Both the position numbers and the translations under genes were made by a program. DNA of 64,000 nucleotides, taken from the NCBI RefSeq assembly GCF_000478275.1, contig NZ_ASJB01000017.1, positions 1 through 64,000 on the forward strand. Reading direction: 5' to 3'. Every line of letters begins with the position of its first letter. Position 1 is the first letter of the stretch. The notes under the pieces were generated by a model. It did not search any database. It saw only the letters and a program-made list of their open reading frames with translations, and had not been told where the DNA came from. Positions 2,908 to 42,546 of this stretch are shown piece by piece. The stretch comes from Amycolatopsis orientalis DSM 40040 = KCTC 9412. Lineage in GTDB: Bacteria; Actinomycetota; Actinomycetes; Mycobacteriales; Pseudonocardiaceae.

Positions 2908-2910
2908 CCC

Positions 2911-3060
2911 CGCATTTCGTCCTCTAAATGCGCTATCGCCCTACCCCGATCCCGCATCTCGTCCTCTGGATGCGTTCCGGTCCCGCCCTGATGCCTGCAT
3001 TTCGTCCTCTGGATGCGGTGGATGCACACGCAAGTAGCGCATTCAGAGGACGAAATGCGG
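2911..3060. repeat. Palindromic repeat family B: three direct arms and one inverted arm
   Basis: The arm CGCATTTCGTCCTCTGGATG and variants occur in direct orientation at about 2911-2932, 2953-2974 and 2997-3018, and inverted at 3038-3060. The last direct arm and the inverted arm form a long hairpin with a GCAC-rich loop. The block starts 4 bp after the chitinase stop codon and sits between convergent genes, so it may terminate both. A second locus is at 22317-22382. Confidence 0.85.
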
Positions 3061-3144
3061 GAGGGGGCGGGACGTGGAGCGGGCCCGCACCGTGCAGCTT
3101 CGGTGCGGGCCCGCAGTTCGGGGATACCTCGGGGAGAAGGGACG

Positions 3145-4515: not shown

Positions 4516-4525
4516 TGTCAGCCTC

Positions 4526-6169: not shown

Positions 6170-6328
6170 TTCACTCCTTACAACCCGGTGCAGGGAAATG
6201 ATCTTGGAGAGGATTCCGTCAAAGCGAAATCAGCGACATCACGTTGCCTCGGCCGAAGCCGGGCAGGCGGGGATGCGTCTTCATCGACCACCTCCATGGC
6301 GGAACGCTTTGTTGCGGGAGACGGTACG

Positions 6329-6340
6329 TGGTCTGGACCA
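6329..6340. promoter_or_regulatory. DasR-like operator (dre) upstream of chitinase operon
   Basis: TGGTCTGGACCA is a near-perfect palindrome matching the core of the Streptomyces DasR element, about 165 bp before the ATG at 6169. The other DasR-like box in this stretch is at 1078-1092, so all three chitinases may share control. Confidence 0.65.
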
Positions 6341-6430
6341 ATATGGGAAGCGTCACTACGTAGAGTGGTGATTTTCCTGCGAACGGCCTAATACGTTCGA
6401 CAGCGTTAGTCGTTCACTGGTTCGGTGCCG

Positions 6431-6862
6431 CTATCGGCGAGGTTCGTCCATTTCCCCGAGCCGGGCGATATTCGCCGATTCGTCGGGGTCCGGTGCGATA
6501 CCGGAAAGGAACACGTCGGTGATTTCGACAGCCACATCGGGGGCGAGCCGTTTGAGGCTCAGCGCCAGCACGTTGGCGTCGTTCCATTTGCGCGCGCCCG
6601 CGGCGATCCAGGTGTCCCAGGCCAGCGCCGCGCGGACCCCGGGGACCTTGTTGGCCGCGATGGCCGTGCCCGTCCCCGTCCAGCACATGACGATGCCGTA
6701 GTCGGCCTCGCCGTCGGCGACCGCCTTGCCCACCGCCGCGCCGAGTTCCGGCCAAGCTTCCGACGTCACCGGCAGGAGCACCTCGTGACCGGCTTCGGCG
6801 AGGAAGGCCCGGACGGCGTCCGTGGTCGAGTTCCGGTCGTCGGCCGCGAAGGCGATCTTCAT
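6431..6862 (-). CDS. RpiB/LacA/LacB family sugar-phosphate isomerase
   Basis: 143 residues, the usual length for the family. It begins MKIAFAADDRN and contains the phosphate/active-site loop MCWTGTGTAIAANKVPGVRAA with the cysteine of the RpiB type, and a late WNDANVLALS stretch. Members interconvert ribose-5-phosphate and ribulose-5-phosphate or related sugar phosphates in the cytoplasm. The N-terminal DD pair and the Cys-x-Gly variation (CWTGTG instead of CGTGIG) suggest a substrate other than ribose-5-phosphate. It stands alone, head to head with a TetR gene 59 bp away that could regulate it. Confidence 0.85.
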   Translation of the reverse strand: MKIAFAADDRNSTTDAVRAFLAEAGHEVLLPVTSEAWPELGAAVGKAVADGEADYGIVMCWTGTGTAIAANKVPGVRAALAWDTWIAAGARKWNDANVLALSLKRLAPDVAVEITDVFLSGIAPDPDESANIARLGEMDEPRR

Positions 6863-6921
6863 GTCCGGATCGTACGCCGCGTCGAGAGGTGATGGACCGG
6901 AAGTCGTGGGAGGATCGCGGC

Positions 6922-7551
6922 GTGGACTCGTCTGCCGAGGAGCGCCAGGTCCAGCGAGATCAGGAGATCGCGAGGACGCGGATTCTCGACACCGCCGCCC
7001 GTCTCATCGGCGAGGCCGGCTTCGCCCGGCTGAAGATCGGCATGATCTGCGCCAGGACCGGCTATCCCAGCGGTGTCGTCTACCAGCTGTTCGGCTCGAA
7101 GGAGACGCTGGTGCAGCGGCTCGTCGAGTTCGCGGCGGAGAAGTTCGCCGACGTCTTCAGCGCCGCCGTCGCCACCCGGACGGGTGGCCTGACGCCCAGC
7201 CCGATGGACATGCTGCGGGCGCTGCTGGACGTCTTCTTCGAGCTGCTCACCGACATGCCGCCGCTGAACCGCGCGTTCGTGGTTTTGTGGACGGACGCGA
7301 CCGTCGGCGATCCGGCCGTGCGGTCGGCGATGACCGAGGCCGATCGCCGGTACCGGTTCGCCATCGCGCAGACCGTCGCCGCCGGACTCGCGGACGGCTC
7401 CATCACCGGCGTCCGCGACCCCGACGCCTACGCGGCGGCACTGGTCGGTCAGCTGCGGGGGATCGCCGTGGCCTCGATCATCGACCCCGGCGGAATCGAT
7501 CTCCGCGCCGTCCGTGCGGAGATGGAGTACGCGGTCGACCGCCTGGCTTAA
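6922..7551 (+). CDS. TetR family transcriptional regulator
   Basis: 209 residues with an N-terminal HTH (ARTRILDTAARLIGEAGFARLKIGMICARTGYPSGVVYQLF in register with TetR_N) and a C-terminal ligand domain. The GTG at 6922 is preferred because GGGAGGA lies 7 bases upstream; a GTG/ATG pair at 6889-6892 is possible but has no well-placed ribosome site. The stop overlaps the stop of the convergent DM13 gene. The target is unknown; the divergent RpiB-like gene is the obvious candidate. Confidence 0.85.
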   Translation: MDSSAEERQVQRDQEIARTRILDTAARLIGEAGFARLKIGMICARTGYPSGVVYQLFGSKETLVQRLVEFAAEKFADVFSAAVATRTGGLTPSPMDMLRALLDVFFELLTDMPPLNRAFVVLWTDATVGDPAVRSAMTEADRRYRFAIAQTVAAGLADGSITGVRDPDAYAAALVGQLRGIAVASIIDPGGIDLRAVRAEMEYAVDRLA

Positions 7552-28136: not shown

Positions 28137-28457
28137 GTGACGGGTTATCAGGTGGTGGTCGGCAAGATCCGCGGCACAAGTCAGGCCGCCGGACGAGTCG
28201 TCGAGGGCCTGCGCGGAGCCGGCTGTCCGGCCGCCGTGCCTGCGGGCGACCTTGGCATGCCGGGGTCGCGGGCCGCGTTGGCGATGGCTCGGGTCAAGCA
28301 TGTGCTGGTGTCCCGGCAAGCGCGTTTCGAAGCCCGGCTCGATATCCATGCGGGGAATATGGCGAAGGCCGCGGACTTGTATTCGGCTCAGGACGCGGCC
28401 GCGGCGGCGGATATCACGGTGCCCGTGCCCGTGCCGGGGCCGGTGAAGGCCGGCTGA
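28137..28457 (+). CDS. EspC-like type VII secretion target protein
   Basis: 106 residues, helical, with no signal peptide. It resembles the short EspC/DUF2580-type ESX secretion-associated proteins of actinobacteria: GYQVVVGKIRGTSQAAGRVVEGL near the N-terminus and NMAKAADLYSAQDAAAAADI near the C-terminus. The GTG at 28137 follows GGGGAGG by 5 bases. Its stop overlaps the next gene (TGATG). It probably pairs with the WXG-like N-terminal part of the next protein as a secretion partner (inference). Confidence 0.7.
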   Translation: MTGYQVVVGKIRGTSQAAGRVVEGLRGAGCPAAVPAGDLGMPGSRAALAMARVKHVLVSRQARFEARLDIHAGNMAKAADLYSAQDAAAAADITVPVPVPGPVKAG

Positions 28458-30151
28458 TGGTCACGTGGGGTGAAGCGAAGCGGTGGAATCCGGCCGTGTT
28501 GCAGGAGGCGGTTGGAGCGATCAACGCCGGCTACAACAAGCTGGTGGCGTGTTCGGATGATTTGCGCGACACCAATACGCCTGAGGGCTGGCATGGTGAA
28601 GCGGCCGGCGCGGCGGCCGCAGAAGTGAATCAGATCATCGACGGCCTGGAGGAGTACGCCGCGGACATCGCGGCGTTGCGCCGCGCGGCCGGCGATACCG
28701 GGGACGCGATCACCGGTGTGCAGAACGGGGTAAGGGAAGCCGAGACGATCGCCTCGGGTAACCACTTCAGGATCGCGGCCGATGGTGCGGTCATCGACAA
28801 CGGGGTGCCGGATGTGCCGCCGGAGCAGGAACAGCTGGTCGCGGAGGAACGCGCCCGGCTCGCGGAGGAATTGAAGGACCGGGTCGCGCGGGTGTTGCGG
28901 CAAGCGACTGATATCGACGACGACTTGTGTGCGGTGTTGGGGCGGATCGAGGCCGGGCATGTCATCGACGCCACGGGGAACGACAACGAGAACACAAGTC
29001 TGGCCGCGGCCGGTAACTCGGGGGCGGTGAACGGTGCCTTGTCGGTGTTGGCTCCTCCGCCGGTGGGTGCGGATCCGTCGATGAACGCTGCGTGGTGGGC
29101 CGCCTTGTCCGAGTCGCAGCGCAAGCAACTGATCGCGCAGCGCCCTGGTTGGGTGGGTAACCGGGACGGGGTGAGAGCCGCGGACCGCAGCAGCGCGAAC
29201 TTGAACCTGCTTGAGCAGCAGAAAAGGGGCTTCACTGCGGAGCTGGAGCGGCTGCGTCGAGAAGATGGCGATTCGGATGAGATCGCGCGCCTCGAGGAAC
29301 GGGTGAAGGCGATCGACTCGATCACCGGGATGATGCACGACCCGGACGGCGGCCTCAACCCGAATCGGCAGCTGATGTCGCTGGATATGACCGGCGACCA
29401 TCCGAAAGCGGCGATCGCCAATGGCGATGTCGACACCGCGCAGCATGTCGCGGTGTTCACTCCGGGCATGAACTCCACGGTCGACGGGAACATGCGCGGC
29501 TACGTTGATGACATGGATGGTGTCGCGCGCAGTGCTGAGCGGATGCTTGCCACCCAGGGCGGCGGTTCGGTGGCCACGGTTACTTGGATCGGCTATGAGC
29601 CGTCCACGTTCGATGATTCGGCGTCGTTGATGGGGCTGGCGACCGCGGAGAACGTGGACGTCGGTGGTGACAAGCTCGCGAAGTTCGATCAGGGCATCAA
29701 CGCTTCGCGCCCGACCGATCCACATCTGACCGCGTTGGGGCATTCGCAAGGGTCGATCGTGACGGGGATCAGCCTCACCCACGCTGGCACTGGGGTGGAT
29801 GACGCGGTGGTGTTCGGCAGTCCGGGGGTGGCGAACCATTTCGGCACCGACAACACTGCCCACGATTTGAAGGTGCCTGACGGGCACGCCTACAACATCA
29901 GGGCCGAGGGTGACGCGGTCGCCCAGTATGTGCCGGAGGCGTGGCGGTATGGCCGGGCGCCGTACGCGATGGAGGGGATGAATCAGCTGTCGGCTGATGC
30001 CGCGGTGGGCGCCAATGGTGCGCCGTTGGCCGCGTCGCATGGGCACAGCGAGTACACGAAGACGATGCCCGGTGGGGTTGATTCGACCAGCAAGCACAAC
30101 ATCGCCGCTGTCGTTGCGGGCATGCCGCAGCTGGCTGTCGCCGCACGCTAG
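28457..30151 (+). CDS. Alpha/beta hydrolase (DUF1023) with N-terminal helical WXG100-like domain
   Basis: 564 residues. Residues about 1-110 form a helical hairpin with WHGEAAGAAAAEV, in the style of WXG100/ESX substrates. A helical linker with coiled-coil character follows to about 300. The DUF1023 alpha/beta hydrolase domain (about 300-530) has HVAVFTPGMNSTVDGNM, WIGYEPSTFDDSAS and the nucleophile elbow LGHSQGSIVTG, with a late GHSEYTK. No signal peptide. Proteins of this architecture are candidate type VII secreted lipases or esterases. TGATG coupling to the EspC-like gene supports joint secretion. Confidence 0.85.
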   Translation: MVTWGEAKRWNPAVLQEAVGAINAGYNKLVACSDDLRDTNTPEGWHGEAAGAAAAEVNQIIDGLEEYAADIAALRRAAGDTGDAITGVQNGVREAETIASGNHFRIAADGAVIDNGVPDVPPEQEQLVAEERARLAEELKDRVARVLRQATDIDDDLCAVLGRIEAGHVIDATGNDNENTSLAAAGNSGAVNGALSVLAPPPVGADPSMNAAWWAALSESQRKQLIAQRPGWVGNRDGVRAADRSSANLNLLEQQKRGFTAELERLRREDGDSDEIARLEERVKAIDSITGMMHDPDGGLNPNRQLMSLDMTGDHPKAAIANGDVDTAQHVAVFTPGMNSTVDGNMRGYVDDMDGVARSAERMLATQGGGSVATVTWIGYEPSTFDDSASLMGLATAENVDVGGDKLAKFDQGINASRPTDPHLTALGHSQGSIVTGISLTHAGTGVDDAVVFGSPGVANHFGTDNTAHDLKVPDGHAYNIRAEGDAVAQYVPEAWRYGRAPYAMEGMNQLSADAAVGANGAPLAASHGHSEYTKTMPGGVDSTSKHNIAAVVAGMPQLAVAAR

Positions 30152-30157
30152 GAAGAC

Positions 30158-30769
30158 GTGTTTCTCATGCCGAGCCGAATCTCTTTTGCCGTGACCATGA
30201 CCGTGGGCCTCTTGCTGTCGGTGGTGGCCTGCAGTGATAGCGGGCAGTACCTTGGAACGCCATCTTCGGAGAAGTCGATGCCTAGTCAGGATCAGTACGC
30301 CGAACTCTCCCGTAGGCCATCGATCGAAGAGGTGGTCGCGCACTACGACAAGCTCCGCCAGGCCCTGCAAGCGAGACTGTCCACGGAACTTGGGGTGACG
30401 GGCTGGGTGGACAAGCAGGATGGGCGCCAGTCGGGGTGTGCGAACGAGTTCCCCGGGGTGGATAGCCGGGACGCTGTCCGCATGTTCTTGAGCTTCCTCA
30501 TCGCGCCGAAACCGGTCACGGGCGAGCAGTGGCAGGCCGCGACGCGGATCGTGACCGAAGTCGGCGCGGCACATGGGTTCGACAAGCCGGGACTGCAGGT
30601 GAACAAGCCGCCCGCGTTCGAGTTCGAACTGAAAGACCAGTACCTGGCCAGCGCGACACTGTCGACGGACAAGACCACAGTGATCTCGATCGAGACCGGT
30701 TGCCACTTGACGACCGCGGCCAAGCAACGCGCCGGCGGGGCGCCTGCTTCGAAAAGCACTCGAGGGTGA
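30158..30769 (+). CDS. LppA-type lipoprotein
   Basis: 203 residues. Hydrophobic signal with lipobox LLSVVAC, then a globular domain with RRPSIEEVVAHYDKLRQAL, GRQSGCANEFPGVD and ETGCHL; the two Cys may form a disulfide. This matches the LppA-like lipoproteins often found beside DUF1023/ESX-type genes in actinobacteria. The GTG start at 30158 follows GGAAGAC, 6 bp after the hydrolase stop. It could act as an immunity or anchoring partner for the hydrolase on the outer face of the membrane (inference). Confidence 0.75.
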   Translation: MFLMPSRISFAVTMTVGLLLSVVACSDSGQYLGTPSSEKSMPSQDQYAELSRRPSIEEVVAHYDKLRQALQARLSTELGVTGWVDKQDGRQSGCANEFPGVDSRDAVRMFLSFLIAPKPVTGEQWQAATRIVTEVGAAHGFDKPGLQVNKPPAFEFELKDQYLASATLSTDKTTVISIETGCHLTTAAKQRAGGAPASKSTRG

Positions 30770-31136: not shown

Positions 31137-34100
31137 TCAATGCTCGTCGAGCCGGAGTTCCATACAGGCCAAGCCGTTTCCGCCGATCAGGAGCTGGGGA
31201 GCCTTGCGCCGCGAGACGCCGTGCAGGGTGAAGACGTCGCTGTCGAGCAGGAGCGGATGGCCGATCGATCGCGCGGACACGGGATCCCAGGCCTGGACGA
31301 CACCGTCGTGGCCGGCACTGATCACCGCCGGTCGGCCGTCCGGCAGCCGGACGGCGGTGAGCGCCCCCACCGGACCGCTGTGCGCGGAGATCGGTGTCCC
31401 GATGACCTGGACCGTGGCGATGTCCACCGCCCGTAGCATCCCGTCCTTTCCGCCGACCACCGCCACGCTCCGGCCGTCGGGCCAGGTCAGGGCGACACCC
31501 GCGGAGATCGAGCAGCCGAGGTTGACGTCGCCGAGGCGGCGGCGCGTGACGAGGTCCCAGACGCAGACGGTGCCGTCGTCGCCGCTCGCGAGGGCTGCCA
31601 CCCGGCCGTCGGGAAGGACCGCGGTGAGCACCATCTGGATGCCGAAGTAGCCGTTCCAGGGATGCTCTTCGCTCCCGATCTCGTAGTTCACCATGCCGTC
31701 GGACCCCGGTGAGGATTCGATTCGCCGGGCACCCGCGAAGGGACCGCGGGAGACTCGGCCGAGTGCGGCGCCGGAGGCCGGGTCCCACAGATGGACACCG
31801 CTGCCGAAGCTGCCGGCGCTGATCACCACGGCCCGGCCGCCGGGCAGCACGGCGGTGGTCATGGCCGTGACCCCCAGGCCATGGCCGGTCCAGATCCCCG
31901 CCACCGGATCCCCGGTGGCGAGATCCCACACGCGGATCAGCGAATCCCACCCGGAGGAACTGACCGCCACGACCCGGCCGTCGGGAAGGGGCAGGATTTC
32001 GGCGATGTTGACGCGCCTGCCCTCCTCGAGCGTCCGCACTTCCGAGCCGCTGCGCAGATCGACGACGCGCAAGGATTCGCCGACATTGTGCACGGTGATC
32101 TCCCGGCCGTTGGGCAGCCTCCCCGTGGCGAACGCGCGAACCCTCTCGGCCTCGTTCCGGGCCGAGTACGCGTCGGTGGTCAAATGCCAGAGCCGGACAG
32201 CGGCGTCATGGCTGCTTCCCGTCACCGCGGCGACACTTCGGTCGGGGAGCACGATCGTCGCGAGCGAGTCCAGCATCAGCACACCGCTGCCGATGGCCTC
32301 GAAGGCGAGTTGCTCCTCGCCGAGCGCCGCGATCCACAGCCGCCCGGCGAGGACGACGAGGCTCTTGCCCCTGCCACCTGGCATGTCGACCAGCACCATC
32401 GCCTCGACGGTTTGCTTCTCCGGGATCGCCCCGGTCAGGATTTCGTCACCGGAGACGAGGTCGTGGAACCACAGCTCGCCGCTGGTGCCGCCCACCACCG
32501 CCACTGGCTTCCCATCGGGGAACACACCGGCGGTGAGAGCGGACGCGGTGCCGCTGATGGTTTTGAGTAACGAAGGGTCACGCATCACGCCTTCCCGATC
32601 GCCCGTCACCCGGTTCCACACGTGAACGGAATCTCCGGTGAGGAGGTCCCAGACACGGACGTCACCGCCATGCACCACCGCCAGCGCGAGCACCCTGCCG
32701 TCCGGGAGCACCGTGACGGTAAGGGAGGAACCCTGGTATTCGCTCGCCTTGGCGGGAGAGGGCATCGGTTCGCCGGTCACCACATCCCGGATGTGGACGG
32801 CGTTCGCCTTGTCGTCCGAAATCACGGCGACCACCCGCCCGTCCGGAAGGCGCAATGCGGCAAGGGATGTCACTGCGCCTTCGTAGGCGCAGGGTTTCCC
32901 GATCGGTGTGCCCGCGGCGAGATCCCAGACCCGGCTCGTCCCGTCAGTGCTCCCGGTGACAGCCACCGTCCGGCCGTCATCGAGGGTGACGGTGGCGATC
33001 GCGCTGATCGCGCCGGTGTGGCCGAGCAGCGGATCCCCGATCTGCTCGCGCGCGACCGGATCCCAGCGACCGACGGAGCCGTCATCCCCGCCGACCAGCA
33101 CGATCGCTCGCCCATCGGCGAAGGTCGCGGCAGTCAACGCCCGGACCGGACCGGAGGATCGGGTGATGATCTCCGCGTGCTCGCATGTCCATCTCAGCCA
33201 CCGTGGTTCCCAGCCCGGACCGCGCCGGACGGCCCTCGCGGAGTGATATCCCTCGGCGGCCAGGCGGAAGCGCAACGCGTCCGCGTTGATCGGCGCGGAG
33301 TCCAATGAGGACAGTTGTGGAGTGCTGCGCCAGTGTCTGAGGAGCGGGCTTTCCGGCTTCGGGCCTCGTGCCGTCACCGAACTCAACCGCGCTACGTCGA
33401 CGTAGGGCAGGAAATCCTCGGTGAGGATCGTGCTGTCGAGCACGCCACCGCCGGCGGCGTGCTCGACGAGGTGCCGCCTGACGTAGGGCGGAGGATTTCC
33501 CTGCGTCCTCAAATCGTCGAGCGCCCGGGTGATCCTGGCCTCGACGGCGGGCCGGGAGTCGGCTTCGAGCGGCGGTCGGTCGAGCAGTTCGTGCCAGTCG
33601 TCCCGCAAGGTGTCACGGAGCAGGTCGTGGAAGAGCCGGTAGACGGTCGCGTCGTCTTGCCGGTCGGTGACCAGGTACGCGCCGAGGCGGGAGTCGAGCA
33701 GCCAGGAGATGTCGGTGTCGCCGAATTCGTAGTCGCTGTCGCCGACCGCGTTGGCGACGCGGGGCCAGATCTTCCGCCACGGCAGTCCGGCACCGCGGGC
33801 GAACGCGATCGCCCGGAGAAGCACGATCGCACGATGCCGGTCGGCCGGGGCGGCGAAGGTGCCGTCTAGGTCTGCCTTGAAGACGCCGGTGACGCCCTGA
33901 TGAAGAGCCTCACGCCACGACGTCCCGAGCATGCCGTGGGCGAGTGACGTCGCAGCGAGGCGGGCGAACAGGAACGACCGTCCCGCCTGGCCGCCGACAG
34001 TGGCCGCCAGCTCGGCGGTCCGGGTGCCGTCGTCGCCGTGGTATCGCGAACCAGCGGTGTTCCGGAGGATCCCGGCGACGTAGGCGACGACGTCGGCGGG

Positions 34101-35561
34101 GTCCCACCACGGCGCCTCGTCGACCCGGATCCGGTTCGACGCGAACAGGGTCTCGGCGAGGTCGGCGAGCGGAGGCGTGGCGTACCGCACCTGATCCACG
34201 CGTCGTTCTCCGCCCGGTGAGCGCAGACCGAGGAGCAGCCGGACCCGGGGTTCCCGTGGATTCGGCTCGAGCCGGGCGATGATCGTGGTGAGCAGGCTCC
34301 GCGGCGCGGCGGCTTCGTCGACGGCGTCCACGACCACGGTCACCCGCCGGTCGCTCGCCCGTAACCGGGCCTGCCACGAGGCGAGACGTTCGTCGAGGCT
34401 GGCACCCGGGTGCTCGCTGTCGCGGTGCGCCGGCTCGAAGGCGCGCAGGATGTGGTCGAGGACTTCGGTGTCGAGTTTCCCGGTCGCGACGACGGCGACG
34501 TCGACAGCGCCCGACGGCGGCATCAGGTCATCCCGGACGGCGGCGAGTTCCGCGGCGTGTGCCCGCCGGAACTCCGGATCGCTCAGGGTCACCAGACGGG
34601 CCAGCGCCGCCGATTTGCCGCTGCCTGCCGCTCCGGTGATCACCGTCGTGCCGGGCTCGCCGGTGGCGGCCGCGATCAGCGCCCCCATCAGTTCGGCGCG
34701 GCCGGTGAACAGCCAGCCGGGTTCGTCGTCCGTGGCCACGCCTCGTGCCTTGGGGCCCCAGTGGGTGCGCAGATCCTGCCGGGAGAGCGCGAGGTCGTGC
34801 CGGGCCGGGGAGACTTCGACCACGGCGTCCGGGCGGTAGTGCGGGTTGGGCAGACAGACGTGCGGCGATCGGCGGGACAGCCCCGTGACCGCCTCGGCTA
34901 TCTGGCTGCGGCCGAGGTGTTCCCGTAGTCCGTCAAGTAGGTCTTCCACCGACAGATGGGGTGCGTGGCCGAACTGCGCTCCCTCCCGGGAGGCGAGTTT
35001 GTCGAGGAACGCGGTGATCGCCCGGCTCAGCACTCCGGTGCCTGCCTGTTGGGTCTCCGCGGCACTGGCCAGGATCACCCACGACTCGGGAGCTTTTTGG
35101 TCGAGCTTGGCCAGTTCGCCGATGATCATGCCCGCGTAGCAGGTGTCGACGATGACCACGAGGTGCGTGACATCCGTGCAGGCGAGCCATTTGAAGAGGT
35201 CGAACGAGGCGAGAGCGGTCGCGCCCCGCCGATTCGACTCGGTCTCCTTCAGGATCAGATGGTGCGCCTTGTTGACCGCCTCGGCGTGCCCGGTCACGAA
35301 GACGACCGCGGCGTCGGCGTCCCGCCAGCGGTCTTCCGGGGGAGGGTTTTCCAGTGCGGCTTGGATGTCCCGTTTCGCCGGGCTGTCGGCCAGTTCGGGA
35401 AAACGGTGCTCGAATCGGCGTCCGCCGAGGTGGTCCGCGCACAGCCAGGCGCGCAGGGCCGCGACCTCCTCGCCGACCGGCAGGGGGAGCCAGTTCGGGT
35501 CGTCGTACTCCGCCGTCGCGATGGCCACGAAATGCCTGCGGAGAATGCTGTCACCGGTCAT
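31137..35561 (-). CDS. Caspase-like peptidase / STAND NTPase / WD40 repeat protein
   Basis: 1474 residues in three parts. First, a C14-type caspase domain (about 1-240) with catalytic His92 in FVTGHAE and Cys141 in IVDTCYAG. Second, a STAND-type NTPase (about 280-800) with Walker A GAAGSGKS at 310-317, Walker B VTVVVDAVDEA, and helical regions. Third, a WD40 beta-propeller array (about 830-1474), about a dozen repeats with GH..V and R.WD signatures. This is the architecture of bacterial NLR-like proteins: propeller as sensor, NTPase as switch, protease as effector. It overlaps the alpha/beta hydrolase gene upstream by ATGA, so the two are translated together. Start chosen from that overlap and the caspase domain boundary. 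The biological trigger is unknown. Confidence 0.88.
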   Translation of the reverse strand: MTGDSILRRHFVAIATAEYDDPNWLPLPVGEEVAALRAWLCADHLGGRRFEHRFPELADSPAKRDIQAALENPPPEDRWRDADAAVVFVTGHAEAVNKAHHLILKETESNRRGATALASFDLFKWLACTDVTHLVVIVDTCYAGMIIGELAKLDQKAPESWVILASAAETQQAGTGVLSRAITAFLDKLASREGAQFGHAPHLSVEDLLDGLREHLGRSQIAEAVTGLSRRSPHVCLPNPHYRPDAVVEVSPARHDLALSRQDLRTHWGPKARGVATDDEPGWLFTGRAELMGALIAAATGEPGTTVITGAAGSGKSAALARLVTLSDPEFRRAHAAELAAVRDDLMPPSGAVDVAVVATGKLDTEVLDHILRAFEPAHRDSEHPGASLDERLASWQARLRASDRRVTVVVDAVDEAAAPRSLLTTIIARLEPNPREPRVRLLLGLRSPGGERRVDQVRYATPPLADLAETLFASNRIRVDEAPWWDPADVVAYVAGILRNTAGSRYHGDDGTRTAELAATVGGQAGRSFLFARLAATSLAHGMLGTSWREALHQGVTGVFKADLDGTFAAPADRHRAIVLLRAIAFARGAGLPWRKIWPRVANAVGDSDYEFGDTDISWLLDSRLGAYLVTDRQDDATVYRLFHDLLRDTLRDDWHELLDRPPLEADSRPAVEARITRALDDLRTQGNPPPYVRRHLVEHAAGGGVLDSTILTEDFLPYVDVARLSSVTARGPKPESPLLRHWRSTPQLSSLDSAPINADALRFRLAAEGYHSARAVRRGPGWEPRWLRWTCEHAEIITRSSGPVRALTAATFADGRAIVLVGGDDGSVGRWDPVAREQIGDPLLGHTGAISAIATVTLDDGRTVAVTGSTDGTSRVWDLAAGTPIGKPCAYEGAVTSLAALRLPDGRVVAVISDDKANAVHIRDVVTGEPMPSPAKASEYQGSSLTVTVLPDGRVLALAVVHGGDVRVWDLLTGDSVHVWNRVTGDREGVMRDPSLLKTISGTASALTAGVFPDGKPVAVVGGTSGELWFHDLVSGDEILTGAIPEKQTVEAMVLVDMPGGRGKSLVVLAGRLWIAALGEEQLAFEAIGSGVLMLDSLATIVLPDRSVAAVTGSSHDAAVRLWHLTTDAYSARNEAERVRAFATGRLPNGREITVHNVGESLRVVDLRSGSEVRTLEEGRRVNIAEILPLPDGRVVAVSSSGWDSLIRVWDLATGDPVAGIWTGHGLGVTAMTTAVLPGGRAVVISAGSFGSGVHLWDPASGAALGRVSRGPFAGARRIESSPGSDGMVNYEIGSEEHPWNGYFGIQMVLTAVLPDGRVAALASGDDGTVCVWDLVTRRRLGDVNLGCSISAGVALTWPDGRSVAVVGGKDGMLRAVDIATVQVIGTPISAHSGPVGALTAVRLPDGRPAVISAGHDGVVQAWDPVSARSIGHPLLLDSDVFTLHGVSRRKAPQLLIGGNGLACMELRLDEH

Positions 35562-36421
35562 CCGCCCGCCACCCGCGGGAGCACCCGCAACAGCGCGGCG
35601 CCGGTCTGACGGCGGCTGAGATACCGCTCCGCGGAATGGGCCTTCGCCCCGTTGTCCACGACGATCTCGTCGGTTTCGCGGATCTGTGGCCACCAGGTGC
35701 GCAGTTCCCCGCCGCAGGCGACCGGATCATGCGGATCGCGGATGTTGACCCAGGCCGGGACGGGCAGGGCCTCGACCCGCAGGCTGTCCCGCACCATCCG
35801 CAACGCCAGGGGCGAACCGGCGGTGATCAGCATTTCGACCCCGAGTCCCGGATTCCGGCGCAGGAGTTCGTAGGCGACCACGGAACCGAGCGAATGTCCG
35901 ATCACGACCCGGCAGTCCGCCGGGATCATCTCCCGCACCCGGTTGTCGACGGCTTCACGGACGGACGGCAGGCGTAGGTACCGGCGTACCTGCCGGAGTT
36001 CCTTGATCGACAGCACCGCGGCGGCCGCCCCGTACCGGCGGTCGATCGCCGCGAGCAGTGCCTGCAGCGGTCGTGGGAAGCGACCGAAACCCTTCGGCAC
36101 CTCGGCGGCGGCAGCGGCGATCTCGGCCGGGGTGACCAGTTCGGCGAGGGCCTCGGCGACGTCGTCCCATTCCTCGGTGTCGAGGTCGAGATCGTCGACG
36201 GAATCGGGAACTCCGGATTTGGTGGCGACGGAATCCGTGGCACCATTCCGGGCCGGAAGAAAAAGATCTCCGTAAAAGGCGATATCGAGGTCGGAAAACA
36301 TCGGCCGTCGGCCGGCCGCCCGCTCCAGTCCGTCGCCCAGTGCCGGACCCCATGCGGCGAGAAGTTGCTGTCTCCCAAGCCATTGCTGGCCGATCCCGTG
36401 CACTCCGACTATCAATGCCAT
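35558..36421 (-). CDS. Alpha/beta hydrolase, partner of the caspase-STAND protein
   Basis: 287 residues. IVGVHGIGQQW oxyanion region, nucleophile Ser178 in IGHSLGSVVAYE, acid in NIRDPHDPVA (about Asp232) and His262 in AKAHSAERYL. It resembles PGAP1/lipase-like hydrolases that appear beside STAND NTPases in predicted conflict systems. No signal peptide. The ATG at 36421 follows GGAAGGG. First gene of the two-gene operon; ATGA overlap with the caspase gene. It could be a second effector that the caspase activates by cleavage; an acidic, flexible stretch at about 60-95 (GATDSVATKSG, DDLDLDTEEWDD) would be an accessible cut site (inference). Confidence 0.85.
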   Translation of the reverse strand: MALIVGVHGIGQQWLGRQQLLAAWGPALGDGLERAAGRRPMFSDLDIAFYGDLFLPARNGATDSVATKSGVPDSVDDLDLDTEEWDDVAEALAELVTPAEIAAAAAEVPKGFGRFPRPLQALLAAIDRRYGAAAAVLSIKELRQVRRYLRLPSVREAVDNRVREMIPADCRVVIGHSLGSVVAYELLRRNPGLGVEMLITAGSPLALRMVRDSLRVEALPVPAWVNIRDPHDPVACGGELRTWWPQIRETDEIVVDNGAKAHSAERYLSRRQTGAALLRVLPRVAGG

Positions 36422-36512: not shown

Positions 36513-39338
36513 TCAGATTCGGACATCGTGCCGGGAGGACGCGTCGAGTTTGCGGAGCACGTTGGCGACGTGGTCCTCGACGGTACGTCGTGAGATGAAC
36601 AGGGCTTGAGCGATCTCCCGGTTGGTGTGGCCGTTCGCCAGCAGGCGTGCGACATCGTGTTCGCGTGGCGACAGCTGTGTTCCGTAGCTGCGGCGGCCAC
36701 GGACGGAGGGGATGACGGTGCCGGTGCTGCGGATGTGGTGGCGGCAGCGGGCGGCGTCGACGGTGGCGCCCAGCGCGTCGAACGTGACGGCCAGCTCGCG
36801 GAACACGGCGGGATCGGCGCCGGAGACGCGAGCGGCCCGGTCGGCGCACTGCGTGGCGCGGTAGCGCTGCCCGAGTTCGTCGTAGCGCAGCCGCGCGTCG
36901 CGGTAATGCTGCTCGGCTTCGTCGTGATTTCCCGCCGAGGCGGCCAGCTGGGCCCTGCACACCGTGAGCGCCGTCCGCGCCGAGGGCGCGTCGATGCCGT
37001 CCAGTCCTTCCTCGGCCTCCGCGACCAGCTGTCGCGCGGCGTCGGGCTCGTCGTCGGCGAGGTGACACGCGACAGCCTGGGGGACGATCTCGGCTGTCCA
37101 GGCCCAGGAACCCTTCGCGCGCAGGAGGTCGAGTCCGCGCTCCGCGTGGCCGCGAGCCGCGGCGTCGTCCCGGCTGAGCAGCATGGCGGCCATCCCGCCC
37201 GCCACGGCCACCGCCACCGGGATCACCGCGGTCGGATGGGTGTCGAGGGCGGCGTGGAACCCGTGTTCGGCGGTCAGCCAGTCGCCGCGCGCGGCGGCCA
37301 GCCAGCCGATGACCAGGTTCAGTTCGTTCGCGATATGTGGCAGATGGGGATAGACACCGATCAGCGCCTGTGCCCGCTCGGCCAGCCCGGACCACTCGCC
37401 TGCCAGCCAATCCAGCCGGGCTTCGGTGGCTTCGGCCGTCGCCACCACGTAATCGGCGCCCGCCCGTGAGGCCAGCGCCAGCCCGGTGTGCAGGAACGTT
37501 CGCCCCTGCCGGTCACGGCCGATCCACGAGCACGCGTCGGCCAGATTGGTGTGAGCCCTGGCGAGATGCCTGAGTTCAGCGGGGTCGGCGACGTCGTCGG
37601 GCGCGGGCAGCAGGGCGATCCGGTCCCAGCTGACCGGGTCACCGACGATGAGCCGCCCGCCGAGCACGGTGGCCAGCACCGCCGTGCGCGCGGCGCGCCG
37701 CGGTAAATGAGTGAGCAGGTCCTCCACCCGCGGAAGCCACGTTCGGTGGTCGGCCACGGTGGAGATGTCAAGATAGGGCACGGAAAGCAGGGCCATCCCG
37801 GACGCGACGCGCTCGGGATGGTCGCCGAGAAGCTCAATCGCGTCCGTGATTTCGGCGCATCCGCGGTCCAATCGGGACTCGCGCACCAGCAGGATGCCCA
37901 AGCACAGCCGCACTTCGCCGCGCACGGCGGCGACCAACCTGGGGTCTGACCGCAGTGCCTCGATGCGCATGATCACACCGGCGTCGGGCAGCCCGGCCAG
38001 CGCGTACCCGCAGAGTTTCGTGGCCAGCCGGTTCAAGTCCTCGGCGGGCACCTCGCGGTCGGAGACCACTTGGGAGAGCACGTCCACCGCGACGGACATG
38101 TCGTTCGCCTCGGCCGCCGCGTCCGCGGCGCTTTCGCTGTAACGCAACCACTCTTCCCGCATGCCCGCCTCGGCGCAGTGCCGGGCGAGCCGCCCGACCG
38201 GCCATCCGGCGACGTCGGCCAGCACGCGTACCGCGGCGCGGTGCAGCTCCTGCCGACGCGGTCCCGGCAAAGCCGCGTACACCGCCCGCCGCGCCATGTC
38301 GTGCCGCAGGCCGTACCGGTTCGGCGGACCTTCCGTCAGTACACCGGAACGCACCAAACCCACCACCGGGTGTACACCGGAAGACCCCGCGACCGCGGTG
38401 AGGACCTCCGCCGGTGCCGCGTCGCCCAGCACGGCCGCCGCCTCGGCGACCGCGCGCTCCGGTCCGATCAGCCGGTGCAGTCGTTCGAGGATCGACTCCT
38501 TCACCAGGACGGGCACATCGACGGTGGCCAGGACCCGGCGAGCCACCGCCCCCTCGATCCGGGTGTCCACGAGCCGATCGCGCAGCGCACGGGCCGTTTC
38601 CGTGACCACGAAAGGGAGTCCGCCGGTCTCGTGCAGCACCGCGGTCGCGAACGACTCCGAAACACCGCCGCCTGTCACGACTTCGATCAGCGTCCGCACC
38701 TCCGGGGCCTCCAAGGGGCGGAGTCCCAGACGCGCGGTGGCGACCTCGGACGGCGGGTGCACGACCGGCCCCAACGGGGCATCACCGGGAAGTTCCTCAC
38801 CCCGATAGGTCAGGACCAGCGACAGTCCGGGCGGCGGGGCCGCGAGCAGGAATCTCAGCACCTGACGGGTGTCTTCATCCGCCCAGTGCACGTCTTCGAC
38901 CACGAGCACGGCCTGCCCCAGCGCGCGCACCAGCGCGCAGACCGCGCGGAACATCCGATGGCGCTCGGCCTCCGGGCGGTCCAGCGGCGGCGGGGCCGGT
39001 GGCAGGAGATCGGCGAGTTCCGGCAGGTGTCCGCGCAGCGCGCCGGTCACCGGATCGGGATGGCGCACCCTGTCCCCGGCTCGCCCGAGACAGTCGAGCA
39101 ACGGACCATAGGGGAAAGGTTCGTCCAGCGGCTGACAGGTGCCGACGGCCAGCCACAGGTTCCGGCCGCGCACCACCGTCGCGAGCGCACCGATCAAAGT
39201 GGTCTTCCCTGCCCCGGCCTCACCTTCCAGGAACGCCACCGCGGGCGGACACGTGACGAGGTCGGACAAGGTGTCCAGTTCGGCGCTCCGGCCGACCATC
39301 GGGACGGATCGCCCGCGCGTCGACGGAGACACGCCCAT
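36513..39338 (-). CDS. LuxR-type regulator of the LAL family (large ATP-binding)
   Basis: 941 residues. N-terminal AAA/STAND ATPase with P-loop LEGEAGAGKTTL (about 37-48) and Walker B LVVEDVHWADEDT. A middle helical, TPR-like region covers about 350-860. The C-terminal LuxR HTH (about 880-941) shows LSPREHDVARLLANGHTNREIAQALFISRRTVEDHV. The ATG at 39338 follows GGAGG. LAL proteins activate pathways for sugar use, secondary metabolites or secreted enzymes. It is divergent from the secreted protease genes, which are the nearest candidate targets. Confidence 0.9.
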   Translation of the reverse strand: MGVSPSTRGRSVPMVGRSAELDTLSDLVTCPPAVAFLEGEAGAGKTTLIGALATVVRGRNLWLAVGTCQPLDEPFPYGPLLDCLGRAGDRVRHPDPVTGALRGHLPELADLLPPAPPPLDRPEAERHRMFRAVCALVRALGQAVLVVEDVHWADEDTRQVLRFLLAAPPPGLSLVLTYRGEELPGDAPLGPVVHPPSEVATARLGLRPLEAPEVRTLIEVVTGGGVSESFATAVLHETGGLPFVVTETARALRDRLVDTRIEGAVARRVLATVDVPVLVKESILERLHRLIGPERAVAEAAAVLGDAAPAEVLTAVAGSSGVHPVVGLVRSGVLTEGPPNRYGLRHDMARRAVYAALPGPRRQELHRAAVRVLADVAGWPVGRLARHCAEAGMREEWLRYSESAADAAAEANDMSVAVDVLSQVVSDREVPAEDLNRLATKLCGYALAGLPDAGVIMRIEALRSDPRLVAAVRGEVRLCLGILLVRESRLDRGCAEITDAIELLGDHPERVASGMALLSVPYLDISTVADHRTWLPRVEDLLTHLPRRAARTAVLATVLGGRLIVGDPVSWDRIALLPAPDDVADPAELRHLARAHTNLADACSWIGRDRQGRTFLHTGLALASRAGADYVVATAEATEARLDWLAGEWSGLAERAQALIGVYPHLPHIANELNLVIGWLAAARGDWLTAEHGFHAALDTHPTAVIPVAVAVAGGMAAMLLSRDDAAARGHAERGLDLLRAKGSWAWTAEIVPQAVACHLADDEPDAARQLVAEAEEGLDGIDAPSARTALTVCRAQLAASAGNHDEAEQHYRDARLRYDELGQRYRATQCADRAARVSGADPAVFRELAVTFDALGATVDAARCRHHIRSTGTVIPSVRGRRSYGTQLSPREHDVARLLANGHTNREIAQALFISRRTVEDHVANVLRKLDASSRHDVRI

Positions 39339-39521
39339 CGCCACCTCCGCACTGGTCACGCCGGTTCCGGGAGGCCGCAACGATACGTCGGACCGTCTCC
39401 ATCGCGTAACCCTGATCACGGTAATGCCGTACCCCTCCGGGGTCTCACCACGATTGTTTCCCCTCCGCCCGCGCCGAATGGTGAAGCGGTGCGCCAGGCG
39501 CACCCGGGAGATGGAGGAGAG

Positions 39522-41057
39522 ATGCAAAAGGCCCGAATGACGTTAGGTCTGTTCGGCATCGCGGCCGCACTGGTGGCGGTGAGTCCCGCCGCGTCGGCCG
39601 CGACGCCCGAAAGCGACATCGTGCAAGCCCGGCAGCCCCTCGCCGGTCGCTACATCGTGGTCCTCCGGGACGGCGCGCAGGCGGCCGCGCAGGGTGGGGC
39701 AGCGTCGTTGACCCAGCGCTACGGCGGTGCGGTGGTCGACACCTATGCGTTGACCCTGAACGGTTTCTCGGTCCGTGACCTGAGCGAGCGGCAGGCAAGG
39801 CGCCTGGCCGCCGACCCGGCGGTGAAGGCGGTGCACCAGGACGGTGTCGCCCGTGCCGCCGGAGAGCAGCCGAACCCGCCCTCGTGGGGGCTGGACCAGA
39901 TCGACCAGCGCACGAAGACCTTGGACAAGAAGTACGTGTATCCCAACGCCGGCGAGGGTGTCACCGCCTATGTCGTCGACTCCGGCGTGGGCATCCGGCA
40001 CACCGAATTCGAGGGCCGGGCCACGCACGGCCGCGATTTCATCGACAATGACGACGACGCGACCGACTGCTTCTGGCACGGCTCCCACGTGGCGGGCACC
40101 ATCGCGGGCAAAACCGTCGGCGTCGCCAAGAAGGCCAAGGTGGTCGCCGTCCGCTCGCTGGGTTGCGGCGGTTCCGGACCGGACTCGGCCACCGTCAGCG
40201 GCCTGGAATGGGTCGCGGCCAACGGGAGCAAACCGGCCGTGGTCAACCTGAGCCTGGTCATGGACACCGTCGGCGTCGGCGATGCTCAAGTGAAAGCATT
40301 GGTGGACAAGGGTTTCGTGGTCGCCGTCGCGGCGGGCAACAACGGCCAGGACGCCTGCACGGCCAGCCCCGGCCGGACCCCCGAAGCACTGACCGTCGGC
40401 TGGATCAACCAGGGCGGCGGCCGGAGCGGGAACTACGGGAAGTGCGTCGACCTGTTCGCCCCGGGCGGCAACATCTATTCCTCCGACCACACCGGCGGTT
40501 ACCGTACCGGCAGCGGTACCTCGATGGCCTCGCCACACGGTGCGGGGGCGGCGGCGCTGTACCTCGCCGCGAATCCCGGCGCGACCCCGCAGCAAGTACG
40601 CGACGCGCTCGTCCGCAACGCCTCGCCGGGTCTGGTGACCGATCCCGGCGCGGGCTCGCCGGACGCGGTGCTCTACACCGGGTTCATCGGCGGAGGTACG
40701 CCGCCCAAGTGCGGTGTCGTGTCCAACGACGAGGACGTGTCCATCCCCGACGCCGGGGCCACCGTGGGCAACGCCGTGACCCAGAGCAGCTGTGACGGCA
40801 AGGCTTCGGCGGCTTTGGCCGTCCGGGTGGACATCGACCACACCTACTCCGCGGACCTGGCGATCGACCTGGCCGGACCGAGCGGGGCCACATGGCCCCT
40901 CAAACGAGCGGGCGGGATCGGCGACAGCGGCGGTGTGCACCAGACCTTCACCGTGGACGCCTCCGGCGAGAACGCCAACGGCACCTGGAAGCTCCAGGTC
41001 CGCGACATCCACCGATTCGACACCGGCACCCTGACCGGCTGGTCGATCACGTTCTGA
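39522..41057 (+). CDS. Secreted S8 subtilisin-like serine protease with C-terminal P domain
   Basis: 511 residues. Signal peptide about 1-26 (ASA). An I9 propeptide (about 40-115, GRYIVVLRDGAQAA to AVKAVHQDGVAR) folds and inhibits the enzyme until cleaved. In the S8 catalytic domain the Asp is in YVVDSGVG, the His in HGSHVAGT and the Ser in GTSMASPHGAG. A proprotein convertase P domain covers about 395-511. Extracellular protein digestion. RBS GGAGGAG directly before the ATG. It lies 31 bp before the S1 protease in the same direction, probably one operon. Confidence 0.93.
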   Translation: MQKARMTLGLFGIAAALVAVSPAASAATPESDIVQARQPLAGRYIVVLRDGAQAAAQGGAASLTQRYGGAVVDTYALTLNGFSVRDLSERQARRLAADPAVKAVHQDGVARAAGEQPNPPSWGLDQIDQRTKTLDKKYVYPNAGEGVTAYVVDSGVGIRHTEFEGRATHGRDFIDNDDDATDCFWHGSHVAGTIAGKTVGVAKKAKVVAVRSLGCGGSGPDSATVSGLEWVAANGSKPAVVNLSLVMDTVGVGDAQVKALVDKGFVVAVAAGNNGQDACTASPGRTPEALTVGWINQGGGRSGNYGKCVDLFAPGGNIYSSDHTGGYRTGSGTSMASPHGAGAAALYLAANPGATPQQVRDALVRNASPGLVTDPGAGSPDAVLYTGFIGGGTPPKCGVVSNDEDVSIPDAGATVGNAVTQSSCDGKASAALAVRVDIDHTYSADLAIDLAGPSGATWPLKRAGGIGDSGGVHQTFTVDASGENANGTWKLQVRDIHRFDTGTLTGWSITF

Positions 41058-41088
41058 CCCGGAACCTCCCTGCGAACCGAGGAGCACG

Positions 41089-42546
41089 ATGAGAACAGCA
41101 CGTCTGGTCACCGCCTTCGCCATGGCACTGGCCGTGATCACCCTGCCCGCGATCGACACGGCGAAGGCCGGCCCCACCGCCATCGCCGCGACCCCCACCG
41201 ACCAGCTGCGGCCCCCGGACATGGGTACCCGGGTGGTCAACGGGCAACGGACGACCGTGCGGGAAAACCCTTATGTCATCGCGGGTCTGCGTGCAGGTGG
41301 CGGCGGCCCACAGGGCCAGTCCTGCACCGCTTCCGTCGTCGGCAAACGCAAGATCGTCACCGCGGCGCACTGCATGATCGACGTCGGTGGCGCGAAAAGC
41401 TACCTCTACGGCGACGACGACCTGAACACTCCGGGCGACGAAACCTTCCGCACACCCGTCGCCTCCTACAAGGTGCATCCCCGCTACACCGGCCCGAACT
41501 CCTGGCAGACCGGCTACGACGTCGCGGTGATCACCACCGAGGCCGACCTGCCCGTCCCGGAAAGTCAGTGGGCCAAGGTGGCCGGATCGGGTGATGCCGC
41601 GCTGACCGCACCGGGGAAGTCGGGCACCGCCGTCGGCTACGGGCGCACCTCGGCCAGCGGCGGATCCGGCGTCCTCTACAAGACCACGATGCCGGTCAAC
41701 GACGCGAACACCTGCCAGGTGTTCAACGTGCGGGTGAACCCCGACCTCATGGTGTGCGTCGGCTACGACGACGGACGCACCGCGACCTGCTCCGGCGACA
41801 GCGGCGGGCCCTTCATCGTGGACGGCGTGATCGTCGGCGTCGTCTCGTGGGGCTCGGGCGGATGCGACCGCTACAGCATCATGGCCCGGCTCACCAACGA
41901 GATGGGCGACTGGGCCCGCGGCGAGATCGGCGGAACTCAGCCCGGTGACGGGAAATTCGGCGTCTCCCTCAGCCCGGCGGCAGGCAAAGTCGAGCCCGGC
42001 AAGTACATCTCGACCTCCGTCGTCACCAAGGCGGGCGACACGGGACCCGAAAAGCTCGACCTGTCCGTCACCGGCCTGCCCGCCGGCGCGACGGCCACGT
42101 TCCAGCCCGGCTCGTCCGTCACTTCCGGCGACGTCGCCAAACTCACCGTGGAAACCGCGGCGAGCACTCCGAAAGGCACGCACCGGATCACCGTCACGGC
42201 GAAAGGCGCGTCCGGCACCAAGTCGGCCGACTACACCCTGACCGTCGGCGACGGCGGCACCACGGACGGGCCCAAGCCGGCCGTGTCACCCGGCGCTGGA
42301 ACGGTGAAATCCGGCTCGTTCGTCGACGCGACCGTCACCGTCACCGGAGGAATGGGCAACAGCACACTGACCGCGACCGGTCTGACGATGAACCCGATGT
42401 TCCAGCCGTCCACTGTGGCCCCGGGTGGTACTTCGCGCATGTCCATCGCCGCGCCGTTCCAGCCCGGCACCTACAAGATCACCATCACCGCCACCGACAG
42501 CACCGGCAGAACCGGGACCACCGAATACAGCCTCACCGTCCAATGA
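41089..42546 (+). CDS. Secreted S1 family serine protease with two C-terminal Ig-like repeats
   Basis: 485 residues. Signal peptide about 1-27, short propeptide, then the chymotrypsin fold from RVVNGQRTTV: His in VTAAHC, Asp in GYDVAVI, Ser in CSGDSGGP. At the position that is Asp189 in trypsin the sequence has Ala (ATCSGDSGG), so cleavage after Lys/Arg is unlikely despite overall trypsin similarity. Two Ig-like repeats follow (about 285-390 and 395-485). RBS GAGGAG. Second gene of the protease pair; a strong hairpin follows at 42556. Confidence 0.92.
   Translation: MRTARLVTAFAMALAVITLPAIDTAKAGPTAIAATPTDQLRPPDMGTRVVNGQRTTVRENPYVIAGLRAGGGGPQGQSCTASVVGKRKIVTAAHCMIDVGGAKSYLYGDDDLNTPGDETFRTPVASYKVHPRYTGPNSWQTGYDVAVITTEADLPVPESQWAKVAGSGDAALTAPGKSGTAVGYGRTSASGGSGVLYKTTMPVNDANTCQVFNVRVNPDLMVCVGYDDGRTATCSGDSGGPFIVDGVIVGVVSWGSGGCDRYSIMARLTNEMGDWARGEIGGTQPGDGKFGVSLSPAAGKVEPGKYISTSVVTKAGDTGPEKLDLSVTGLPAGATATFQPGSSVTSGDVAKLTVETAASTPKGTHRITVTAKGASGTKSADYTLTVGDGGTTDGPKPAVSPGAGTVKSGSFVDATVTVTGGMGNSTLTATGLTMNPMFQPSTVAPGGTSRMSIAAPFQPGTYKITITATDSTGRTGTTEYSLTVQ

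Follow-up and report, generated by a model that had tools for sequence, protein, structure and literature searches.

The window analysed here, 64,000 nucleotides of Amycolatopsis orientalis DSM 40040 = KCTC 9412 (NCBI RefSeq assembly GCF_000478275.1, contig NZ_ASJB01000017.1, positions 1 to 64,000 of the forward strand), contains two overlapping genes, one for an alpha/beta-hydrolase and one for a large protein in which a caspase domain is joined to a STAND NTPase and WD40 repeats. We propose that the caspase probably cuts the neighbouring hydrolase after two lysines, Lys68 and Lys110, which would take an acidic lid off the hydrolase and so activate it. At the level of sequence the basis for this proposal is the overlapping pair, its conservation, the intact catalytic residues, the matched residues at the two predicted sites and their co-variation with position 32 of the caspase. 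The features of the pair are as follows, in window positions.

35558..36421, minus strand: alpha/beta-hydrolase gene, ATG at 36421, stop codon 35558-35560; predicted pro-enzyme substrate of the caspase
36218..36220, minus strand: hydrolase Lys68, predicted cut site 1 (TK-SG), from alignment and model
36092..36094, minus strand: hydrolase Lys110, predicted cut site 2 (PK-GF), from alignment
36092..36217, minus strand: segment of the hydrolase (residues 69-110), acidic and variable, whose excision is predicted; two predicted helices (82-93 and 98-105)
35891..35893, minus strand: hydrolase nucleophile Ser177 (GHSLGS), invariant in a 34-sequence alignment
35726..35728, minus strand: hydrolase Asp232, candidate catalytic acid, invariant in the same alignment
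35636..35638, minus strand: hydrolase catalytic His262, invariant in the same alignment
31137..35561, minus strand: caspase-STAND-WD40 gene, 1,473 aa, ATG 35559-35561, stop codon 31137-31139
34827..35561, minus strand: caspase domain, residues 1-245, MALT1/metacaspase-like by fold comparison and alignment
35466..35468, minus strand: caspase Glu32, aligned to MALT1 Asp365 and the Asp of metacaspase CVND; co-varies with the hydrolase twin sites
35286..35288, minus strand: caspase catalytic His92, present in 81/81 sequences of the caspase alignment
35139..35147, minus strand: caspase D139-T140-C141, DxC motif with the catalytic Cys; D139 and C141 each present in 81/81
33402..34715, minus strand: STAND NTPase region, approximately residues 283-720, Apaf-1/NB-ARC-like fold, from Pfam and fold comparison
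34611-34634, minus strand: P-loop GAAGSGKS, residues 310-317, read in the sequence
31140..33191, minus strand: WD40 region, approximately residues 791-1474, from Pfam; 14 repeats by eye

The initial annotation had described a translationally coupled pair, and this is correct: both genes lie on the minus strand and are joined by an ATGA in which the stop codon of the hydrolase overlaps the start of the caspase-STAND-WD40 gene. The caspase dyad and P-loop that it listed are all found in the large protein, with His92 lying within VTGHAEA and Cys141 within VDTCYAG, and this dyad with its DxC motif (81/81), in agreement with the fold, makes the domain caspase-like of the paracaspase/metacaspase type. 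The P-loop, an NB-ARC-like fold and C-terminal repeats mark the protein as a STAND NTPase, and the NLR-like plan suggested for it is seen both in the NLR/Apaf-1-like order of its domains and in the STAND fold. WD40 repeats are present as described, although not "about a dozen" of them but 14 when counted by eye, a number that would fit two seven-bladed propellers. In a Pfam scan of the large protein WD40 was above its cut-off (E 2.8e-17) and AAA_16/nSTAND1 below theirs; Pfam calls neither the caspase domain nor the hydrolase, both of which are recognised by fold comparison, and the NCBIfam model NF047832 (EACC1-associated caspase) gives 60.8 bits, below its cut-off of 140. The fold, nucleophile elbow and Ser/His plus acid of the smaller protein are those of the alpha/beta-hydrolase superfamily, with lipases leading the fold comparison and esterases close behind at similar Z. 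Its triad is complete, as had been claimed, Ser177, His262 and Asp232 being invariant and Asp229, the other candidate for the catalytic acid, nearly so.

The pair is strongly conserved. A search of species genomes found 426 relatives of the hydrolase, and at 77 of the 80 best loci, which were kept for comparison, a caspase open frame adjoins the hydrolase on the same strand; this answers the check for co-occurrence that had been suggested with the annotation. The two open frames overlap or nearly touch at most of the 77 loci, and at eight the caspase is on the 5' side of the hydrolase. The exceptions (L019, L055 and L089) comprise one case of genes split within 15 kb, one truncated hydrolase and one contig end. 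Hosts of the pair include actinobacteria, a cyanobacterium (Lyngbya), a member of the Bacteroidota (Chitinophaga) and metagenome-assembled genomes of an Acidobacteriia and a Dongia. The window genome itself has four hydrolase homologues and all four lie beside a caspase gene: C17 (window), C31 and C63, where a caspase-STAND-WD40 gene is downstream of the hydrolase, and C96, where the neighbour is a divergent caspase-STAND-FHA protein. A STAND-WD40 protein of the same genome that lacks a caspase (C44) has no hydrolase on its contig. Pairing of caspase and hydrolase, at 4/4 loci here and 77/80 elsewhere, is far beyond chance. A further caspase gene in this genome (C66; L098 6106-8559; Pfam PF00656) has no hydrolase of the family within the 10.5 kb examined.

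The sensor part of the protein is exchanged among relatives, being WD40, TPR (in Lyngbya), FHA or VMAP-M2 with TPR. In Lentzea the large protein is divided, its caspase-STAND and WD40 parts having a gene each, and these two genes and that of the hydrolase all lie within 15 kb; in L196 (Lentzea), a natural split, the first two are divergent genes (2753-4876 and 4963-7308) and the hydrolase is approximately 9 kb away. The pair has decayed in L055 (9632-11275), where a shortened hydrolase runs on in frame into what is left of a WD40 part. Four other loci (L197, L199, L200 and L201) combine a Lys-Lys hydrolase with a caspase open frame of approximately 1,030-1,120 aa; a third large protein follows in L197 and L201, and Pfam gave no match for that of L197 nor for both L201 proteins.

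In 121 close hydrolases a variable acidic segment occupies approximately residues 56-116, within which Lys68 is conserved in 95% and Lys110 in 93% of sequences. In a non-redundant set the values are 72/77 and 70/77, and the segment has on average about nine more acidic than basic residues. An acidic loop at about residues 60-95 had been put forward as the caspase target; Lys68 lies inside this loop, but the second predicted site, Lys110, lies outside it and had been missed. In the structural model Lys68 falls in the only segment of at least three residues with a predicted local distance difference test score below 50 (67-70). More distant homologues have at the same two places Leu-Leu, Arg-Arg, Met-Met, Gln-Gln or Lys-Lys. 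The 24,275 pairs of variable columns in an 84-sequence alignment, some rows of which are misaligned through differences in loop length, were scored without bias for residue identity; the twin-site pair came first with a kappa of 0.48, a narrow lead over two adjacent Trp columns at 0.47 and a next pair at 0.42. When residues were taken by a fixed rule (five before a conserved Pro and eight before a conserved Gln), they were identical in 61/72 sequences from clades having both anchors. Hand-coding of all clades together with 36 further sequences, in which shifts of 1-3 residues were made by eye, gave identical twin residues in 119 of 120 homologues (59 L, 25 K, 18 R, 11 Q and 6 M).

This matching is confined to the two positions, as flanking offsets of 1-4 on either side give kappa values of 0.10 or less; the kappa at offset 0 is no evidence, since this offset served to locate the sites. 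On a tree built from the hydrolase minus the segment, the minimum number of changes is 11 for site 1 and 12 for site 2, and none of 1,000 simulations of independent change reached the observed agreement of 0.992 (mean 0.47, maximum 0.875). Copies residing in the same genome match by eye in 52/60 cases from 28 genomes, many of which had already been used; the matching copies include many that score only 110-160 bits, mostly Gln-Gly. A pair on a Leptolyngbya plasmid, also read by eye, has Arg at both sites and Asp at caspase position 32.

As a control, 20 divergent hydrolases were sorted by their twin-site reading before their neighbourhoods were fetched. A caspase neighbour was found for 13/14 with twin sites and 1/6 without (hypergeometric p approximately 0.002, calculated by hand), where the 13 include L276, counted by sequence motif rather than by profile. 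The twin-bearing L282 has no caspase that could be found. L242 had been coded as lacking twin sites; a caspase was later found beside it (L266), and a second look at the hydrolase shows Leu-Gly at each end, but the original coding was kept. These proportions indicate that the protease and the twin sites occur together, with the reservation that four of the six hydrolases lacking the sites sit in longer open frames (585-861 aa) than those of the twin-bearing hydrolases.

The caspase changes together with the sites. In clan CD proteases with cleavage after Arg or Lys, an acid of helix alpha1 holds that residue (Asp365 in MALT1, Asp163 in gingipain), Asp95 of TbMCA2 has been placed in a proposed S1 pocket, and loop L4 also supplies pocket residues (MALT1 Asp462, TbMCA2 Asp211) (PMC4357240). 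When 38 caspase domains are combined in a profile, position 32 falls opposite the alpha1 acid of MALT1 and metacaspase-4, and D139-x-C141 opposite the DMC of MALT1. Among the first 79 pairs an acid (Glu or Asp) stands at position 32 in 12/12 caspases of Lys-type and 13/13 of Arg-type hydrolases, in 10/48 of Leu-type and in 0/5 scorable of Met-type; most Leu-type and the scorable Met-type caspases have the acid replaced, mostly by Ala or Ser. Nine of the ten Leu-type pairs with the acid carry Arg or Lys two residues before the Leu at both sites, while a basic residue two before the Leu at site 2 occurs in 0/38 of the remainder. This R-x-L reading was made after seeing the data, and new pairs were therefore examined. 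From 75 further loci, 22 without a caspase and 17 at least 85% identical to the first set were dropped, leaving 36 pairs, which were scored by eye without blinding; no judgement was possible for L101 or for ten Gln-type pairs (L101 and L040 are not scorable at position 32). Here 20/21 caspases with acid at 32 were paired with hydrolases whose twin sites both have K/R, in 16 cases at the site proper and in 4 as R-x-L, and 4/4 Leu-type pairs without the acid were without K/R at the twin sites. With Gln-type pairs left out, the combined counts are 54 with acid and basic sites, 2 with acid and non-basic sites, 47 with neither and 0 with basic sites and no acid; a strict reading of the same pairs gives 41, 15, 47 and 0. 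A Pagel test under the wider coding returned a likelihood ratio of 35.9 (p 3e-7).

Several observations weigh against this reading of the pair. Among the 120 homologues L080 differs between its sites (L/M), the sole mismatch, and L147 has Q-T-L at site 1; by alignment column 12 of the 121 close hydrolases (P set) depart from K/K, two of them as M/M. A small residue (G, A, S, T or C) follows both sites in only 83/119, and Lys110 is not predicted to be disordered, lying in coil of good confidence. On an Agrobacterium conjugative plasmid (L304 4139-6858) a caspase gene overlaps a distant hydrolase homologue with no clear twin. The 22/75 further loci had no caspase within a 1.5 kb flank; 13 of these are weak hydrolase matches and nine are strong, including the Lentzea case (L129) and seven (L145, L165, L166, L174, L176, L180 and L181) that are Arg-Arg by eye and in which the caspase may be on the far side. 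At the caspase, the 54/56 agreement includes 13 Leu-type pairs with R (once K) two before the Leu at both sites and falls to 41/56 on the strict reading, the wider coding of R-x-L as basic being post hoc. For position 32 there are no more than 3 to 5 phylogenetically independent contrasts; their mean direction is as expected, but with so few of them 0.05 is out of reach. Eleven Gln-type pairs are ambiguous at position 32 and, when anchored on the next conserved position, have the acid in 6/11. Asp139 is invariant even where the twin residue is Leu, Met or Gln. In a four-class scan position 32 ranks ninth among caspase columns, with 234, 73, 179, 79 and 27 in the lead, and since other columns score higher the case for position 32 rests on its structural role rather than its rank.

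In the mechanism that we consider probable, the WD40 propellers would sense a ligand, as related folds suggest, and the STAND module would then assemble and cluster the caspases as in Apaf-1, an expectation taken from the family. The caspase would cut at both matched residues and excise the acidic segment (69-110). By analogy with two nuclease systems both cuts would be required and cutting would activate rather than inactivate: the HamM pro-nuclease is cut after an Ile in each of two insertions (Ile118 and Ile218) and either mutation abolishes defence, while CanC becomes an active nuclease in complex with its MALT1-like caspase, and defence was lost when either of its predicted sites was mutated (Tuck et al. 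2025, PMC12799240). Activation is favoured on the strength of this precedent, in which two cuts at the same residue in insertions of a pro-enzyme are each needed. The least certain step is the last, in which the activated hydrolase may damage lipids and stop or kill the cell as an immune or death response; hydrolysis of lipid membranes has been predicted for alpha/beta-hydrolase effectors of related systems (Kaur 2021, PMC8195603).

The twin-site data fit any cleavage, and so they would also suit a caspase that destroys the hydrolase, a normally active enzyme being switched off on signal. We think this improbable, as two precise cuts around one segment, with catalytic residues kept and other positions of the loop mostly variable, suit removal of a lid better than destruction, and the closest tested precedent turned out to be activation. 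It is more improbable still that the excised acidic peptide of approximately 42 residues is the effective product, acting as a signal or toxin with the hydrolase as its carrier: the segment does have two matched ends and retains its strongly acidic charge, but its sequence varies whereas Ser177 and His262 are invariant. The twin residues might instead be a docking or structural feature with no proteolysis, for example contacting the caspase or each other. The position of site 2 in a confidently modelled stretch would agree with this, and co-variation is no proof of cleavage. Like charges (K-K, R-R) are, however, ill-suited to mutual pairing, the flanking offsets show no match, and the co-varying position of the caspase aligns with the acid that binds P1, the residue before the cut, in related proteases; we therefore regard docking as unlikely, if a little less so than destruction, and retain cleavage with activation of the hydrolase as the preferred reading.

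Each of the four pairs of the window genome (C17, C31, C63 and C96) has a twin residue of its own, the four being Lys, Leu, Arg and Gln. One way to see this is as a set of insulated wires, in which each caspase would recognise one residue (Lys, Arg, Leu, Met or Gln) that its own pro-hydrolase carries twice as a private code, and in which lineages would re-code both cut sites and the pocket together; we consider the chances of this evenly balanced. Pairs residing in the same genome share a code in 6/34 comparisons from 21 genomes, where 11.1 are expected (one-sided p 0.019). This deficit is only a hint of insulation, because the codes were read by eye, the sample comes from search hits and the paralogues are from different subfamilies. 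If the wires were insulated in this way, four death switches could operate side by side in a single cell with no cross-talk, and a few residues could suffice to read the code or exchange it.

Part of this picture is already in print, namely the pairing of caspase and alpha/beta-hydrolase (Kaur 2020, PMC7159879) and protease-gated pro-enzymes (Tuck et al. 2025, PMC12799240), and the earlier remark that such a pairing had been predicted agrees with the former. In VMAP (vWA-MoxR) ternary systems the caspase is always accompanied by a neighbouring alpha/beta-hydrolase gene, and related hydrolases occur in GAP1 systems; the part of that account of VMAP systems drawn on here gives no cleavage sites (Kaur 2020, PMC7159879). 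The pair in the window follows the same rule of a caspase and a neighbouring hydrolase, but its caspase shares one polypeptide with WD40 propellers and with a STAND NTPase whose P-loop is intact, and a scan of its two proteins and five neighbouring genes gave neither a MoxR nor a vWA domain. In L202 (7163-9768) and L112 a caspase-VMAP-M2-TPR protein lies beside a hydrolase of the family with Gln-Gly twin sites, which would tie the VMAP systems of Kaur 2020 (PMC7159879) to the same proposed mechanism.

As far as the portion of Tuck et al. 2025 drawn on here describes them, HamM, Avs and Canu systems share with our pair a separate effector gene adjoining a protease that is fused to a sensor or regulator. 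In HamM and Canu, as here, one residue recurs at two conserved sites, which there lie in regulatory insertions (Ile/Ile in HamM and a conserved Gly in both insertions of CanC), and Canu, like our pair, uses a MALT1-like caspase. The effector in the window is an alpha/beta-hydrolase rather than the metallo-beta-lactamase nuclease of HamM; it has one segment flanked by two sites where HamM has two insertions, control is by STAND-WD40, and the matched residue varies by lineage together with the caspase pocket. Compared with the Apaf-1/CED-4 apoptosome, the caspase is here in the same polypeptide, has a MALT1-like DxC and has a neighbouring bacterial hydrolase as its predicted substrate. Compared with MALT1 paracaspase and metacaspases, it is fused to STAND-WD40, and in most Leu-type relatives and the scorable Met-type ones the alpha1 acid is replaced. 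A search of open-access literature, mostly at the level of listings, found no account of the twin-site code, the drift among five residues or the link to the caspase pocket. Since 2020 the pairing of caspases with alpha/beta-hydrolases has stood as a prediction in want of an explanation, and the twin-site code would supply a concrete mechanism at the level of residues that can be tested in many systems. It would extend the gating of pro-enzymes from nucleases to hydrolases, provide one output common to STAND-WD40 (Apaf-1-like), TPR, FHA and VMAP sensors, and represent a natural record of protease pocket and substrate changing together.

A role in defence is plausible from the patchy distribution, the occurrence on plasmids and the swapping of sensors, although the direct test of linkage was negative. 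Hydrolase matches at E 1e-15 are present in 61/249 genomes of the family and 96/246 of the genus of G128, and across the phylum 16/396 sampled genomes, the window genome included, have a match at E 1e-20 or better (47 at E 1e-3). A plasmid collection holds 44 records with a homologue, 15 predicted to be conjugative and at least one chromosome-sized; a phage collection gave no hydrolase match at E 1e-5. Linkage to defence islands, proposed as a check on the annotated immune function, was assessed with 109 genes from 21 loci (at most six genes, up to 900 aa, nearest the locus centre, with caspase and hydrolase dropped) and 119 genes from 20 shifted control regions, 18 of them in genomes of the case set. 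At E 1e-10 the case genes gave matches to 63 PADLOC families and the control genes to 44, many being redundant models of one protein. Among the matches listed, 25 families per set, each represents one protein save for one control family with two, and by name those of the case set appear to represent approximately five proteins and those of the control more. This small test, of low power, therefore showed no excess of defence genes near the 21 loci and counts against a defence role, and no model of PADLOC-DB 2.0.0 matches the caspase protein or the hydrolase at E 0.01. Both results would suit a circuit that works as proposed but serves regulation or development, such as programmed death in hyphae, rather than defence against phage. 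We regard this as a serious if less favoured possibility, since in its patchy presence, its plasmid records, its exchange of sensors and its multiple copies per genome the pair is like a conflict system.

A gene for a LuxR-type regulator with an AAA_16 domain (window 36516-39404) lies on the same strand approximately 90 bp upstream of the hydrolase; as neither the C31 nor the C63 locus shows such a gene among its listed open frames, it is not counted as part of the system. Elsewhere in the window are two adjoining plus-strand proteases (38760-42543), a subtilase with a P-domain and a trypsin with Ig-like domains, and at 28427-30769 a gene for an Abhydrolase_8 protein followed by one for an LppA-like lipoprotein.

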